From positions 248,001 through 312,000 of the forward strand of contig NZ_PDNU01000003.1 of the NCBI RefSeq assembly GCF_002631185.1: DNA of 64,000 nt, read 5' to 3'. Source of the stretch: Teichococcus rhizosphaerae. Lineage in GTDB: Bacteria; Pseudomonadota; Alphaproteobacteria; Acetobacterales; Acetobacteraceae. The notes under the pieces were generated by a model. That model saw nothing but the letters and a program-made list of their open reading frames with translations. It was not told where the DNA came from and did not search any database. This document shows, piece after piece, positions 15,175 through 47,774 of this stretch (positions are counted from its first letter, which is position 1; every line of letters begins with the position of its first letter). Position numbers and translations under genes: made by a program.

Positions 15175-17688
15175 ATGGCATCGACCCTCACCTACAGCGT
15201 GCCCAACCAGTGGAGCGGCGGCTTCATCGGCAACCTTTTGCTGCAAGGCGGGGAAGGGGGGCTGGATGGCTGGACGGTCACCTTCGACTCCGGCTTCGAG
15301 ATCACCAATCTCTGGGGCGCCGAGATCGTCAGCCATGTCGGCACCCGCTACGTGCTGCGGAACCTGTCCTGGAACGCCGCCGTGCCGGCGGGCGGCACCG
15401 CCAGCATCGGTTTCCAGGCCAGCGGCAGCGCGGCGGTCCAGCCCCAGGGCCTCAGCCTGAACGGCGCGCCCATGGGCGGCGGGGAAGCCATGCCCGCCAT
15501 CTCCATCGCCGATGCCGCCGTGGCGGAAGGCGATGGCGGCACGCGGGAGCTGGTCTTCACCGTGACGCTGGACCGCGCCGCCACACAGGCGGTAACGGTG
15601 GACTACGCCACCGGCAACGGCACCGCGACGGCCGGGGCGGACTACACCGCCTCGCAGGGCCGGCTCACCTTCGCCGCCGGCGAGACCAGCAAGACGATCC
15701 GCGTGGCGGTGCTGGGCGACCGGGCGGTGGAGGCGGACGAGACGCTGCTGCTGCGCCTTTCTGGCCCCTCCGGCGCGACGCTGGCCGATGCGGAGGCCAC
15801 CGGCACCATCCGCAACGACGACGCCGCGCCCCCCCCGCCGCGCAATGACATCGGTGATGCCAGCCTGGCGGAGGGCGACCCGGCCAGCGGCAGCGGTGGA
15901 GGCGAGGCCAGCGGCTTCCTCAGCACGCGGGGCAACCAGATCGTCGATGCGGACGGCAATGCCGTGAAGCTGGCGGGGGTGAACTGGTTCGGGCTCGAAT
16001 CCGCCAACTTCGCCCCGCACGGGCTGTGGGCGCGCGGCTACCGGGAGATGATGGACCAGATGAAGGCGGAGGGCTTCAACACCATCCGCCTGCCCTTCTC
16101 CTCCGAGCTGCTGCACACCGCCGCCGTGCCGAACGGCATCGACTTCTCCAAGAACGCCGATCTTCAGGGCCTCACCGGCCTGCAGGTGATGGACCGGATC
16201 ATCGGCTACGCCGGCGAGATCGGGCTGCGCATCATCCTCGACCACCACCGCAGCAGCGCCGGCGCCGGCACCTCCGGCAACGGGCTGTGGTACGAGGCGG
16301 GCTATTCCGAGGCGCAGTGGATCGCCGACTGGAAGATGCTGGCCGCGCGCTATGCGGGCGAGGCGGCGGTGGTCGGCGCCGACCTGCACAACGAGCCACA
16401 CGCTGGCAACTGGGGCGGCGGCGGCGCCAATGACTGGGCGGCGGCGGCCGAGCGGGCGGGCAATGCCGTGCTGTCCGCCAATCCGGACTGGCTGATCATC
16501 GTCGAGGGCGTCGGCAGCCACCAGGGCGACAACTACTGGTGGGGCGGCAACCTGATGGGGGCGCGGAACCGCCCGGTCCAGCTCTCGGTGGCCGACAAGC
16601 TGGTCTATTCGGCGCATGACTACCCGAACTCCATCTACGCCCAGCCCTGGTTCCAGCAGCCCGGCTTCGAGGCGGGGCTGGCCGCCAAGTTCGACCAGAT
16701 GTGGGGCTATCTCTACCGCGAGAACATCGCCCCCGTGCTGCTCGGCGAGTTCGGCACCAGGCTGCAGGATCCGAAGGACCTGCTCTGGCTGGAGGCGATC
16801 ACCGGCTATCTCTCGGGCGACCTCGACCTCGATGGGGACATCGACATCGCGGCCGGCGAGCAGGGGGTGAGCTGGACCTGGTGGTCCTGGAACCCGAACT
16901 CCGGCGACACGGGCGGCATCCTGGCCGATGACTGGCACACCGTGATCGAGAGCAAGATGCAGTGGCTGGAGCCGCTGCAATTCGACCTCGGCGACATCCC
17001 CAATGGCGGGCCCGATGGCGGGGGCGGCGCTCAGCCCGCGGCGCGGACCATGCTGTTCACCGCCACCCTTTCCGCCGCCGCCACCGAGGCGGTGCTGGTG
17101 GACTGGGCCACCGCGCCCGGAACGGCGGGCGCGGGCGACTTCACCGCCGCCTCCGGCACGCTGCGCTTCGAGCCGGGCGAGACCAGCAAGACCATCGCCA
17201 TCGCCATCGCGCCGGACAGGCTGGCGGAGGCGGACGAGACCTTCTCCGTGGTGCTTTCCAGCCCGCGCGGCGCTACGGCGGGCGACATGAGCGGCACCGG
17301 CACCATCCTCGACGACGACGCGGAGCCTCCGCCGCCGCCGCTCGAGCCGCCGGTCGAGCCGCCCGTGGAGCCGCCCGTGGAGCCGCCGCGGGAGGAGGGC
17401 GGGCTCGAAGGCAGCGTCTCGGTGGTGAACGCCTGGGGCGGCGGCTTCCAGGCCAGCGTGGCGCTGACCAATGAGGGCCGCGGCGCCGTGCAGGGCTGGC
17501 AGCTGCGGCTCGACACGCCCTACGAGATCACCCAGATCTGGAACGCCGAGATCGTCGCGCGGGACGCCGCCGGCTATGTGATCCGCAACGCCGCCTGGAA
17601 TGGCGGCATCGCCGAGGATGCCACGGTGAGCTTCGGCTTCCTGGGCAATGGGGTGGGCGCCCTGGCCTCGCTCGACCTGGTACTCTGA
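15175..17688 (+). CDS. Multidomain GH5-type glycanase (CBM2, Calx-beta, GH5 nested in a second Calx-beta, CBM2)
   Basis: The 837-residue protein appears built for plant or bacterial beta-glucan breakdown. Residues 1-103 form a CBM2-like cellulose-binding module. About 106-220 is a Calx-beta domain (SIADAAVAEGDGG to TIRNDD). Residues 226-236 repeat its first strand (IGDASLAEGD). A GH5 catalytic domain spans about 247-603, with probable acid/base E407 (HNEPH) and nucleophile E525 (LLGEFGT). Residues 622-715 then supply the rest of a Calx-beta domain. A PPVE-repeat linker leads to a second CBM2 (744-837). GGAGAGG precedes the ATG. No Sec or Tat signal is visible, so the export route is unclear. 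Substrate could be cellulose or another beta-glucan. Confidence 0.88.
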   Translation: MASTLTYSVPNQWSGGFIGNLLLQGGEGGLDGWTVTFDSGFEITNLWGAEIVSHVGTRYVLRNLSWNAAVPAGGTASIGFQASGSAAVQPQGLSLNGAPMGGGEAMPAISIADAAVAEGDGGTRELVFTVTLDRAATQAVTVDYATGNGTATAGADYTASQGRLTFAAGETSKTIRVAVLGDRAVEADETLLLRLSGPSGATLADAEATGTIRNDDAAPPPPRNDIGDASLAEGDPASGSGGGEASGFLSTRGNQIVDADGNAVKLAGVNWFGLESANFAPHGLWARGYREMMDQMKAEGFNTIRLPFSSELLHTAAVPNGIDFSKNADLQGLTGLQVMDRIIGYAGEIGLRIILDHHRSSAGAGTSGNGLWYEAGYSEAQWIADWKMLAARYAGEAAVVGADLHNEPHAGNWGGGGANDWAAAAERAGNAVLSANPDWLIIVEGVGSHQGDNYWWGGNLMGARNRPVQLSVADKLVYSAHDYPNSIYAQPWFQQPGFEAGLAAKFDQMWGYLYRENIAPVLLGEFGTRLQDPKDLLWLEAITGYLSGDLDLDGDIDIAAGEQGVSWTWWSWNPNSGDTGGILADDWHTVIESKMQWLEPLQFDLGDIPNGGPDGGGGAQPAARTMLFTATLSAAATEAVLVDWATAPGTAGAGDFTAASGTLRFEPGETSKTIAIAIAPDRLAEADETFSVVLSSPRGATAGDMSGTGTILDDDAEPPPPPLEPPVEPPVEPPVEPPREEGGLEGSVSVVNAWGGGFQASVALTNEGRGAVQGWQLRLDTPYEITQIWNAEIVARDAAGYVIRNAAWNGGIAEDATVSFGFLGNGVGALASLDLVL
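17347..17382 (+). repeat. Three tandem 12-bp units encoding PPVE
   Basis: Three consecutive copies of CCGCC(G/C)GT(C/G)GAG encode the Pro-Pro-Val-Glu linker between the C-terminal Calx-beta segment and the last CBM2 of the glycanase. Units two and three are identical, indicating recent slippage-type expansion. Confidence 0.85.
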
Positions 17689-19539: not shown

Positions 19540-20088
19540 TCAGCCGCCGCCCGGGCCGGCGCGGCGCGGCAGCATCCGGCGCAGCGTGTCGTCGCCCCGC
19601 GCCCAGTGGTGCCAAAGGGCAGCGCCGGCATGCAGCGCCACCAGCAGCCCGAGGGCGAGCGCCATCCATCCGTGCACCGCGGTGAGCGGCGGCGCCAGCG
19701 CCTCGCTGCGGCCGACCGGGCTCGGCAGCGGGATCACCCCGAAGAGCGAGAGGGGAAAGCCCCAGGCATTGGTGGCCAGGAACCCCACCACCGGCATGGC
19801 CAGCAGCAGCGCGTAGAGCGCGGCATGGGTGGCGAAGGCGGCGCCTTGCAGGAGGGGCGGGGGCGGCGGATGGACCGGCGGCGGCGGGTGGCGCCAGCGC
19901 CAGAACAGGCGCAGCAGCGTCGCCAGCAGGACGGTGATGCCCAGGCTCTCATGGATGTTGTAGAGGCGGAGCTTGAAGGCCTCCTCCTGCGGCGGCGCCC
20001 AGGCGATCCAGAGGCCCAGCGCCGCAATGGCCAGCACGGCCAGCGCGGTGGCCCAGTGCAGCAGGCGCGCGGTGCGGGTGTAGGGCAT
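19540..20088 (-). CDS. Cytochrome b561 family protein
   Basis: The 182-residue inner-membrane protein has four transmembrane helices and the conserved heme-ligating histidines in RLLHWATA (H11), YNIHESLG, LTAVHGWMA and LVALHAGAA. It is expected to shuttle electrons between the quinone pool and periplasmic acceptors or oxygen. A proline/histidine-rich cytoplasmic or periplasmic loop (HPPPPVHPPPPP) separates helices two and three. The ATG at 20088 is preceded by GGAGGA. The start abuts the divergent DUF429 gene, leaving little room for separate promoters. Confidence 0.9.
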   Translation of the reverse strand: MPYTRTARLLHWATALAVLAIAALGLWIAWAPPQEEAFKLRLYNIHESLGITVLLATLLRLFWRWRHPPPPVHPPPPPLLQGAAFATHAALYALLLAMPVVGFLATNAWGFPLSLFGVIPLPSPVGRSEALAPPLTAVHGWMALALGLLVALHAGAALWHHWARGDDTLRRMLPRRAGPGGG

Positions 20089-20119
20089 GCGGCTTCCTCC
20101 GGTGGACGACGATGTCTCG

Positions 20120-21124
20120 ATGATCGCGGCGCATGCGGATTGGAGCACCGATCCGCGCAAGCGCTGGGTCAGCATCGCGCGACGGCGCGGCGGGCGGTGG
20201 CGCGCGGAGGCGCCGCGCCCGGTGGGCGACCCGGCCGCGCTGGTGGCCGGGCTGCTGGCGGAGGGCGTGCCGCTGGCGCTTGGCCTCGATCTGCCGCTGG
20301 GCCTGCCACGCGGCTTCGCCGCCCAGCGGCCGGAGCGGGATTTCCGCCACTTCCTGCGCGGCCTGTCCGCCACGCCGGATTTCTTCGTGGTCAGCCCGAC
20401 GCTGGAGACCGTCTCGCCGGCGCGCCCCTTCTACCCGGCGCGCGGGCTGAAGGGGATGACGCGGCTGTCGCACGCCCGGGCGCTCGGCCTGCCCGATGCC
20501 GCCGGGCTCTGCCGCCTGTGCGACATGGCGACCGCCGAGCGCCCGGCCGGCGCGCCGGTGTTCTGGACGCTGGGCGCCAACCAGTCCGGCAAGGCCGCCA
20601 TCGCCGCCTGGCGGGACTGGCTGGCGCCGGCGCTCGCGGCGGGCGCCAGGCTGCGCTTCTGGCCCTTCGAGGGCGGGCTGGCCGAATTGCTGGAGCCCGG
20701 CCACGCCGTGCTGGCGGAGGTGTATCCGGCCGAGGCGATGCGCCAGCTCGGCATCCTCCTGCCCGGCAGCAAGCGGGACCGGGAAGCGCGCCGCGCCGCC
20801 GGCCCGTCGCTGCTGCTCGCCATGGCGCGGCTCGCGGTGCGGCCTTCCCGCGCGCTGGAGCAGGCGGTGCTGGACGGCTTCGGCGCCGATGCGGCCGGCG
20901 AGGACCGGCTCGACAGCATGTTCGGCCTGCTCTGCCTGGTGGGCGTGCTGGACGGCGCGCGGCCCGACTTCGTGCCGGACGATCCATGGGTGCGGCGCTG
21001 GGAAGGCTGGGTGCTGGGGCAGACCGCCCTGCCGGTGGCGGCGGCCGGCGGTTCCGCTGCTCCGGGGCCAGGGGAGGGCGGTCCGCCCCCGGCCCCGCGC
21101 CCTCAGCCGGCGGGTGGCGCGTAG
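20120..21124 (+). CDS. DUF429-like protein
   Basis: The predicted 334-residue cytoplasmic protein resembles DUF429 proteins, a family of uncharacterised putative nucleases with an RNase H-like core. It opens with AHADWSTDPRKRWVSIA, matching the family's N-terminal Asp-containing strand, and has the GLDLPLGLP and AEVYPAE segments that recur in DUF429. The start is uncertain: ATG at 20120 fits the conserved N-terminus best, but an in-frame ATG at 20087 overlaps the ATG of the divergent cytochrome b561 gene. The last 22 bp overlap the convergent PanE-like gene. Confidence 0.65.
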   Translation: MIAAHADWSTDPRKRWVSIARRRGGRWRAEAPRPVGDPAALVAGLLAEGVPLALGLDLPLGLPRGFAAQRPERDFRHFLRGLSATPDFFVVSPTLETVSPARPFYPARGLKGMTRLSHARALGLPDAAGLCRLCDMATAERPAGAPVFWTLGANQSGKAAIAAWRDWLAPALAAGARLRFWPFEGGLAELLEPGHAVLAEVYPAEAMRQLGILLPGSKRDREARRAAGPSLLLAMARLAVRPSRALEQAVLDGFGADAAGEDRLDSMFGLLCLVGVLDGARPDFVPDDPWVRRWEGWVLGQTALPVAAAGGSAAPGPGEGGPPPAPRPQPAGGA

Positions 21125-46199: not shown

Positions 46200-47774
46200 G
46201 TGAGTCAAAGCCTTCCGGGAGCGCCGCAGAACTTCGCTCCCGTCCGCCGCCTGATGCGTCAGGAGACGCGCTGGACGGTGCTGAGCCTGGGCGTCGTCGG
46301 CGTCACGCTGGCGGTGGTGCTGTTCACCCTGCTGCGCGCGCCGATGAAGGACGACGTCGCCTGGCTGCTCTGGGTCGCCCGGCAATGGCTGCTCGGGCAG
46401 GAGCTCTATGTCGATCTCGTCGAGGTCAACCCGCCGCTGATCATCTGGCTCAGCGCCGTGCCGGTGATGATCGCCGACACGCTGGGGCTGACCGCCAAGC
46501 AGGTGGCGCTGCCCATGGTGGCGGCCACCGCGCTGGCCTCCGCCTGGGCCAGCGCCCGCTGGCTGCGCGGCACCTCGCCGGTGTTCGAGCGCCCGTCCGT
46601 CACCTTCGCCGCCATCTCCTGCGTCCTGCTGGCGATGCCGGGGGTGGAGTTCGCCCAGCGCGAGCACCTGCTGGTCATCGCCGTGCTGCCGCATCTGGCG
46701 CTGCTGATCCGCGGGCTGGAGGGGCTGCCCGTCTCGCCGCGCGCGCTGGTCGGCAGCGCCGTGCTGGCGGGCCTGGGCTGCGCGCTGAAGCCGCGCTACC
46801 TGCTCGGCCTCGCCGCCATCGAGCTGGCCGGCTGGCTGCACCGCGGCTTCCGCATCCGCCTGGCGCCGGTGATCGCCTTCCTGGCGGCGGCGCTCTACGT
46901 CGCCAGCATCGTGCTGCTGGTGCCCGCCTTCATCGAGCGCGCCATTCCGCTCGCCGTCACCCTGTATGGCGGCACCGACACCGGGCTGTGGCAGCTCGTG
47001 CGGGAATCCTGGCTGCTGCTGCTGGGGCTGTCCGTGGCGGCGCTGCTGACGCTGCGCACGCCGCGCGGCACGCCCGCCGCCGGCGTCATGCTGGTGCTGA
47101 CGGCCTTCGCCGCCGCCGCCACCATCGCCATGTTCCTGGACGGCAAGAACTGGTTCTACCACCGCATCCCGGCGATGATGACCGTGGTGCTGGCCCTGCT
47201 CTTCTGGTGCGCCGAGGCCGCCCGCCAGCAGCTGCCGCCGATCCGCTGGCGCGGCGCGCTGATGGCGCTGGCGATGGTGCCGCTGGCCCTCTACGTGCAG
47301 AAGACCTCCCACCGCCTGTATGAGCGCGTGGTGCTGGCCGTGGAGCCCGACCTTTCCACCGAGGTGCGGCTGGAGAAGCTGATCAAGCGGGAGAAGGTGC
47401 GGAGCTACGTGGCCTTCTCCGAGTGGATCGGCCTCGGCTTCCCCGTGCTGAACGACACCAACGTCACCTGGGCCTCGCGCTTCGACTCCATGTGGGCGCT
47501 GCGCGGCGAGCTGTGGCGCGCCCGCCAGGACGGCCAGGCGCCGGCCGAATGGCCGATCCGCCACTGGGTGGTGCAGGACTTCATGGAAGGTTGCCCCGAC
47601 CTCGTGGTGGTGGACCGCCGCGGCGAGGCGATCAACTACCCGGCCATCCTGTCCCAGGCCAATCCGGGCTTCGCGGCCGTCTGGGCGCGCTACCGGCAGA
47701 TCGCCATCGTCGATGGGCTCCAGGTCTACCGGCGGCAGGGCGAGGGCTGCGGCCAGCAGGCCGGGCTGGGCTGA
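46200..47774 (+). CDS. Polytopic membrane protein, GT-C glycosyltransferase-like
   Basis: The 524-residue protein has about ten to eleven helices and a C-terminal soluble part (about 400-524). After the first helix an acidic MKDDVAWLLWVARQWLLGQELYVD segment fits the acidic periplasmic loop of GT-C transferases (ArnT/PMT-like) that use lipid-linked sugars. The start is GTG 46200 with GAGGGGG upstream; an ATG at 46146 is also in frame. Family assignment is tentative. It is separated from the FAD gene by an unusually AT-rich stretch (about 46080-46110) that may hold its promoter. Confidence 0.65.
   Translation: MSQSLPGAPQNFAPVRRLMRQETRWTVLSLGVVGVTLAVVLFTLLRAPMKDDVAWLLWVARQWLLGQELYVDLVEVNPPLIIWLSAVPVMIADTLGLTAKQVALPMVAATALASAWASARWLRGTSPVFERPSVTFAAISCVLLAMPGVEFAQREHLLVIAVLPHLALLIRGLEGLPVSPRALVGSAVLAGLGCALKPRYLLGLAAIELAGWLHRGFRIRLAPVIAFLAAALYVASIVLLVPAFIERAIPLAVTLYGGTDTGLWQLVRESWLLLLGLSVAALLTLRTPRGTPAAGVMLVLTAFAAAATIAMFLDGKNWFYHRIPAMMTVVLALLFWCAEAARQQLPPIRWRGALMALAMVPLALYVQKTSHRLYERVVLAVEPDLSTEVRLEKLIKREKVRSYVAFSEWIGLGFPVLNDTNVTWASRFDSMWALRGELWRARQDGQAPAEWPIRHWVVQDFMEGCPDLVVVDRRGEAINYPAILSQANPGFAAVWARYRQIAIVDGLQVYRRQGEGCGQQAGLG

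Follow-up and report, generated by a model that had tools for sequence, protein, structure and literature searches.

Cellulases of glycoside hydrolase family 5 (GH5) that carry a Calx-beta domain are already known in print. CelE2, a metagenome-derived GH5 endoglucanase with a Calx-beta domain (Pimentel et al. 2023, Enzyme Microb Technol 165:110206, as cited in the available passages of PMC12120621), belongs to the same GH5 clade as the protein discussed here. For Azospirillum, the accessible part of PMC3245306 describes putative cellulases of the two-domain order 'GH_5 - CalX-beta' and calls this order unique; GH5 and Calx-beta follow each other in the same order in our protein. The GH5 endoglucanase MtGlu5, which holds an inserted CBM29-like domain (passages of PMC9063844), also nests GH5 with a beta-rich module, but in reverse, the sugar-binding module lying inside the catalytic domain, whereas here GH5 lies inside a beta-sandwich. 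The closest long-known GH5 catalytic domain is that of endocellulase E1 of Acidothermus cellulolyticus (1ece). This enzyme presumably has no Calx-beta domain, and the Calx-beta domains CBD1 and CBD2 of the NCX1 and CALX ion exchangers, which share the family (PF03160) and the calcium-ligand positions with the domain described below, are taken by us to be contiguous and free of any insertion in the A/B loop. The present study concerns a gene at 15175..17688, on the forward strand like all its parts given below, in a window of 64,000 nucleotides from Teichococcus rhizosphaerae (contig NZ_PDNU01000003.1). It encodes a protein of 837 residues with the order CBM2, Calx-beta 1, strand A of a second Calx-beta domain, GH5, strands B to G of that second domain, a Pro-rich linker and CBM2. 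We consider it likely that residues 222-236 (strand A) and 623-716 (strands B-G) form one discontinuous Calx-beta sandwich, with the GH5 cellulase in the loop between strands A and B.

In the whole protein Pfam recognises two stretches of CBM2, two Calx-beta domains and one GH5 domain. Calx-beta 1 (residues 106-217, 15490..15825) is complete and contiguous and provides an internal control; it matches PF03160 over model positions 16-118, with residues 115-215 as its best stretch. The piece after GH5 (residues 623-716, 17041..17322) matches model positions 32-118 only, with 53.5 bits against a cut-off of 27. On a profile of our own, which has 112 positions and was built from 107 complete copies with the split copies excluded, Calx-beta 1 covers positions 1-112 and the piece after GH5 positions 18-112. 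Positions 1-16 are matched instead by the orphan strand before GH5 (15838..15882, with the codon of its conserved Glu233 at 15871-15873), with a score of 12.4 that none of 500 shuffles reached. The second copy is not one contiguous stretch of about 110 residues, as about 390 residues intervene between profile positions 16 and 18. The first-pass annotation had read the stretch before GH5 as the first strand of a Calx-beta domain and the piece after GH5 as its completion, and the division of the profile agrees with this; its residue numbers were also right (IGDASLAEGD at 226-235 and AARTMLF at 622-628). The strand of the window is among the weaker ones, with RNDI where most relatives have TLSV-like residues; at this place relatives score up to 35.4.

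The same arrangement was found in many of the relatives. These comprised 61 loci taken from named genome records, often metagenome-assembled ones, and 11 loci from the genus, in which 6 of 17 genomes gave matches. We scanned the stretch before GH5 with profile positions 1-16 in 65 distinct GH5 proteins, 62 of which were informative; the three left out were L068, with GH5 truncated by the contig, L066, where the contig stops immediately behind GH5, and L069, with a broken frame. In L069 the open reading frame (ORF) and the contig end soon after GH5, and tblastn places a strand-A-like piece before GH5 in another frame. A Calx-beta domain directly follows GH5 in 44 of the 62 proteins; all 44 copies are headless, starting at profile position 8-20, and all 44 proteins carry the head before GH5 (scores 11.6-35.4, shuffle p 0.002-0.004). 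None of the 18 informative proteins without a following Calx-beta has a head there (best score -9.2), although three of them (L041, L044 and L045) have fewer than 16 residues between the preceding Calx-beta and GH5, too few to hold one. At 47,536 control positions in these proteins the score never exceeded 6.6 and so stayed below 11.6. Headless copies lie nearly always directly after GH5: the ORFs of the loci hold 168 Calx-beta matches, duplicates included, of which 117 start at profile position 5 or earlier, and the only starts at position 6 or later that do not directly follow GH5 are a half copy in L021 and a duplicate in L002 that is cut by the locus end. Six plasmid-borne relatives, drawn from 56 matching records, include five with a headless Calx-beta after GH5; the head is strong in three of these (23.6-33.6) and degenerate in two from Azospirillum (L078 and L079; 1.4 and -7.3), while the sixth, L080, has neither the headless domain nor the head. 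Both Alphaproteobacteria and Planctomycetota have the nested order, including proteins in which GH5 has no complete Calx-beta ahead of it. In the nested planctomycete members L055, L059 and L063 the profile search found no other Calx-beta in the ORF, so that strand A has one evident partner there; in L050 a further copy begins at the end of the ORF. We reject an error of assembly or frame, since the frame is open and 48 other sequences have the same order. It is confirmed that the second Calx-beta lacks its head and that this head sits just before GH5.

Structure prediction gives a consistent picture. In the full-length AlphaFold2 model (predicted local distance difference test, pLDDT, 86.0; predicted template modelling score, pTM, 0.52) strands are placed in Calx-beta 1 at 108-111, 114-117, 123-132, 140-148, 161-166, 172-180, 189-199, 202-205 and 207-213, in orphan strand A at 223-226 and 229-232, and in the body after GH5 at 624-632, 640-648, 660-665, 671-678, 688-698 and 706-712. 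The strand lengths are 4, 4, 10, 9, 6, 9, 11, 4 and 7 in the complete copy and 4 and 4 before GH5, then 9, 9, 6, 8, 11, 2 and 7 after it, in the split copy; the split domain is thus predicted to have nearly the same strand pattern as the complete one. Residues 223-232 are not predicted to be a disordered linker, with a mean pLDDT of 90 in the block 221-230, and the placing of GH5 in the first (A/B) loop of the sandwich, as had been proposed from the sequence, is supported by the predicted strands together with the homologues. A second model, of a 500-residue segment based on an alignment of 44 nested segments, had a mean pLDDT of 89.5, averaging 93 over residues 1-10, with strands at 4-7 and 10-13 and with residues 17-24 and 390-403 below 50. 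This segment contains no other Calx-beta, which leaves the body after GH5, or else GH5 itself, as the sole possible partner of strand A in it.

Strand A could be the leftover of a truncated upstream Calx-beta repeat, a functionless trace of history, with the piece after GH5 folding alone from its six strands. Tandem Calx-beta repeats are present in many of these proteins, and remnants of this kind would result from recombination within a repeat; the strand of the window without its usual TLSV-like start and the degenerate strands of two Azospirillum copies would also fit. A remnant, however, would hardly be kept as this strand is. In the alignment of the 44 nested segments, from two phyla, it has an invariant Glu and an information content of 2.77 bits per column, close to the 2.75 of strands B-G, and no sequence has a gap in it, while gaps are common in the linkers. 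The ratio of non-synonymous to synonymous differences (pN/pS; 21 pairs among 7 close relatives) is 0.60 for strand A, 0.51 for B-G, 0.41 for GH5 and 0.88 and 0.83 for the linkers, so that strand A appears more constrained than the linkers adjoining it, in a test that is crude, as strand A has 14 codons and the pairs are not independent. Strand A is moreover modelled as a confident strand, and L055, L059 and L063 keep it though no other Calx-beta was found in them. We therefore regard a mere remnant as improbable. An exchange of strands between molecules, with the headless Calx-beta of a cellulase completed by strand A of the next and the enzymes joined in dimers or chains on the cellulose surface, is in our view very improbable. 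Conservation and monomer models cannot separate a strand in cis from one in trans, and linkers of 8-25 residues would permit both alike; on the other hand, each nested protein seen has a partner within its own chain, the strand lengths are close to those of the contiguous copy, and nothing in the data examined points to oligomers. There is next to no likelihood that strand A is an N-terminal extension of the GH5 fold with a coincidental resemblance to Calx-beta, since, for all that it lies 8-21 residues before GH5 in the 44 sequences and was included in the CelE2 PDB fragment, it is absent from all 18 informative GH5 proteins without a following Calx-beta (the three too short to hold it included), also from L061 and L062, whose GH5 DNA is 97-98% identical to that of nested copies, the 8fc0 chains seem to have no ordered residues beyond GH5, and no control position matches the head equally well.

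The discontinuous sandwich would also bring together a putative calcium site. In NCX1, Ca3 and Ca4 are held by E385, D446, D447, I449, E451, D498, D499 and D500, and Ca2 by E385 and E451, E385 coordinating Ca2, Ca3 and Ca4 (passages of PMC3386913). The CBD1 ligands E385, D421, D447, E451, E454, D499 and D500 correspond by position to Glu233 in strand A and to the ligand-like residues Asp655, Asp681, Glu685, Glu688, Asp714 and Asp715 in the body; the NCX1 numbering was counted along the alignment with 3us9 from its E454K site, and the Asp pair was placed via the alignment with the fly exchanger only. With gaps counted as misses, Glu233, Asp655 and Asp681 are each conserved in 44 of the 44 nested segments, Glu685 in 41, Glu688 in 42, Asp714 in 38 and Asp715 in 40. 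As ligand positions lie on both flanks, the calcium site would need residues from both sides of GH5. Calcium binding by the second Calx-beta of the window is putative, being suggested by these positions.

Several observations weigh against the reading of a discontinuous, calcium-binding sandwich. The pTM of the full-length model is low, and both AlphaFold2 models are predictions that hold no calcium. The pairing of strand A with B-G is read from the strand assignment and not from contacts, and the strand modelled at 202-205 of the complete copy is reduced to two strand residues in the split one. By pN/pS, strand A is somewhat less constrained than the B-G body. Glu233 equals E385 of NCX1 by position only, as the profile alignment stops short of E385; what it does pair with Glu233 is a Glu of the fly exchanger, in the second of that protein's Calx-beta domains. 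In the degenerate strands of L078 and L079 (the score of the second corresponding to p = 0.05) Asp stands in place of the Glu, so that the invariance of Glu233 does not extend to all 49 nested rows of the GH5 tree described below. The Asp-Asp end is lost in all four nested Azospirillum copies (L076-L079), in two of which strand A and its Glu are intact; the site is therefore not kept everywhere, and calcium binding in these copies is probably weakened or lost. A joint decay of both halves of the site in Azospirillum was considered and dropped, as all four copies lack the Asp-Asp end and only two the Glu of strand A. Of the four Azospirillum copies, L076 and L077 have a clear strand A.

The enclosed, E1-like GH5 domain (residues 245-604, 15907..16986) matches PF00150 with 168.6 bits over residues 257-576 and has the predicted structure of a TIM barrel. 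Glu407 and Glu525 are invariant in 31 of 31 rows. We take their places to be those of the acid/base and the nucleophile of GH5 enzymes. Foldseek aligns the domain with PDB entry 8fc0 at a TM-score of 0.97-0.98 by target length, a root-mean-square deviation of 0.8-1.1 Å and 64% identity, and the structural alignment with 1ece shows 53% identity; among the best 50 of 1,922 Foldseek rows there was no protein named for Calx-beta. By analogy with CelE2 and E1, the domain would be an endoglucanase. To judge by the name CelE2, 8fc0 appears to be the structure reported by Pimentel et al. 2023. Its chain starts with LSISDASATEPGSGGIAPGFL, that is, with strand A, linker and GH5, so that the solved fragment of CelE2 opens with an orphan strand A (LSISDASATEP). 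Each of its eight chains contributes 346-364 of 381 residues in Foldseek, nearly all of which align to GH5, and about 17-35 of the 381 residues seem to be unmodelled. Strand A of 8fc0 is likely disordered, its Calx-beta body having been cut off.

On both sides GH5 is held by linkers that are rich in Gly, Ser, Thr, Ala and Pro. They measure 14 and 22 residues in the window protein and 8-21 and 8-25 residues across the 44 sequences, and in the full-length model residues 237-244 (15883..15906), in a Gly/Ser-rich linker of varying length among relatives, and 609-622 (16999..17040) fall below a pLDDT of 50. It had been suggested that the insertion could rigidly orient the active site between the two CBM2 modules; with parts of both linkers modelled as disordered, a fixed orientation of GH5 is not supported.

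In a tree of 69 GH5 domains (rows), with two outgroup rows, the window included, 49 of the 69 are nested, and no row has a complete Calx-beta directly after GH5 (L066 being cut by its contig there). The first-pass annotation had called such nesting unusual for cellulases, which needs qualifying, as the nested order is the commoner one among the fetched relatives. Nested members are found in both phyla and form the lowest branches beside the outgroup rows. The tree requires at least 11 changes of the nested state, with the contig-cut L066 counted, 9 of them on well-supported branches; losses are the simpler reading, at a moderate support of 86-87% near the root. A sign test on paired state changes (9 to 0) adds nothing, as its second trait was a copy of the first; excision of GH5 as a block would likewise remove both flanks at once. 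In a tree of the B-G pieces, based on few columns, the nearest tip of 41 of the 44 nested pieces is another nested piece, which fits inheritance as a unit. Five Microvirga pairs allowed a nested and an unnested gene to be compared by DNA identity. On the same contig, L030 and L062 share 97.0% and L028 and L061 97.7% identity over about 1,060 bases that end at the GH5 borders; L031 and L066, also on one contig, are 100% identical over 1,053 bases, with L066 at a contig end where assembly collapse is possible, and the remaining two pairs are 82% and 76% identical. As near-identical DNA stops at the domain borders, GH5 seems at times to move as a cassette, by cassette exchange or gene conversion, although the pair at 100% may be an assembly artefact. 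To look for other inserts, Calx-beta was surveyed in genomes of the class (matches in 9 of 142) and of the phylum (in at least 65 of 398), and six regions were fetched, mostly for matches that start late; at least one further region, at the edge of a contig in G405, was not among them. No distant strand A was found in the six: in L084 a contig end truncates the copy, and in the others the head is contiguous or nearly so. With none found in this small search, other inserts at the same place are not shown.

The outer parts of the protein are an N-terminal CBM2 (residues 4-98, 15184..15468; PF00553, 111.3 bits for the whole protein in two stretches), the Pro-rich linker (residues 717-742, 17323..17400), which is below a pLDDT of 50 at 718-741, and a C-terminal CBM2 (residues 744-837, 17404..17685), which is the second PF00553 stretch, has its strands within 744-836 and matches 6bt9 over residues 735-827. 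The protein ends in DLVL (17674-17685), an acidic and three hydrophobic residues that also form the last CBM2 strand. Such an end, with or without a last Gly, is found in 21 of 26 alphaproteobacterial rows versus none of 17 planctomycete rows, some of which are possibly contig-cut. An acidic residue followed by hydrophobic ones at the C terminus is, we assume, the motif of type I secretion substrates. The alphaproteobacterial members have by eye no signal-like N terminus, and the source genome encodes one PrtD-type ATPase above the cut-off, on another contig. These C termini recall type I secretion, but the motif also fits an ordinary last CBM2 strand. As the ends differ between the two phyla, the nesting is probably not bound to one export route.

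A search of the source genome (E <= 0.001) found no Calx-beta beyond the two places in this gene. A second GH5 protein of the same clade, L010 (C70:9792-10889), is encoded there, without Calx-beta and with a different C-terminal region. Six neighbouring ORFs were scanned, and five had a Pfam match (a family-2 glycosyltransferase, an M20 peptidase, a TctC protein, a cytochrome b561 and a ketopantoate reductase), with no other cellulose-degrading enzyme among the matches. The ORF at 20087-21121 on the forward strand (345 residues), flanked by other annotated genes, has no Pfam match, overlaps one of them on the opposite strand and may not be a gene. Among named genomes, Pseudoroseomonas aestuarii gave the highest identity (83%, best segment).

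While GH5 with Calx-beta is already in print, the nesting of GH5 within Calx-beta appears to be new. A literature search found no title on it, most subscription papers, that on CelE2 included, lying outside its coverage; the available passages of PMC3245306, PMC6626019 and PMC12120621 do not mention it, and the words Calx and cellulase are absent from the main text of a 2026 survey of domain insertions (PMC13114784).

Building on the split, its conservation and the modelled strands, which come from sequence or prediction, we propose the following mechanism. Strand A would pair with the B-G body of the same molecule, and Glu233 together with Asp655, Asp681, Glu685, Glu688 and Asp714/715 would form a calcium cluster at that end of the sandwich from which both connections to GH5 extend. 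Plentiful extracellular calcium would then close the split domain, which would grip the cellulase by both ends. GH5 would thereby be a side loop on the chain of CBM2 and Calx-beta modules, held by two short flexible linkers rather than one, and the likely gain would be a more stable enzyme whose reach from the cellulose surface is limited, rather than one of fixed orientation. A cellulase tethered at both ends beside a calcium site is what we consider most likely. More tentatively, the A/B loop may be a calcium-latched socket for a catalytic cassette, in which calcium would control locking during export and presentation to cellulose and GH5 could be swapped by recombination.

In the titles and passages found, the proteins of this clade figure as GH5 joined to Calx-beta, and the orphan strand is present in 8fc0 although its domain is not. 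Should the domain be split as proposed, constructs of 'GH5' and 'Calx-beta' drawn at linear borders cut a folding unit, and could mislead on the role of Calx-beta in cellulases. Microvirga provides natural pairs in which near-identical GH5 domains lie inside and outside the socket, and the A/B loop would offer protein engineering a ready-made insertion site.

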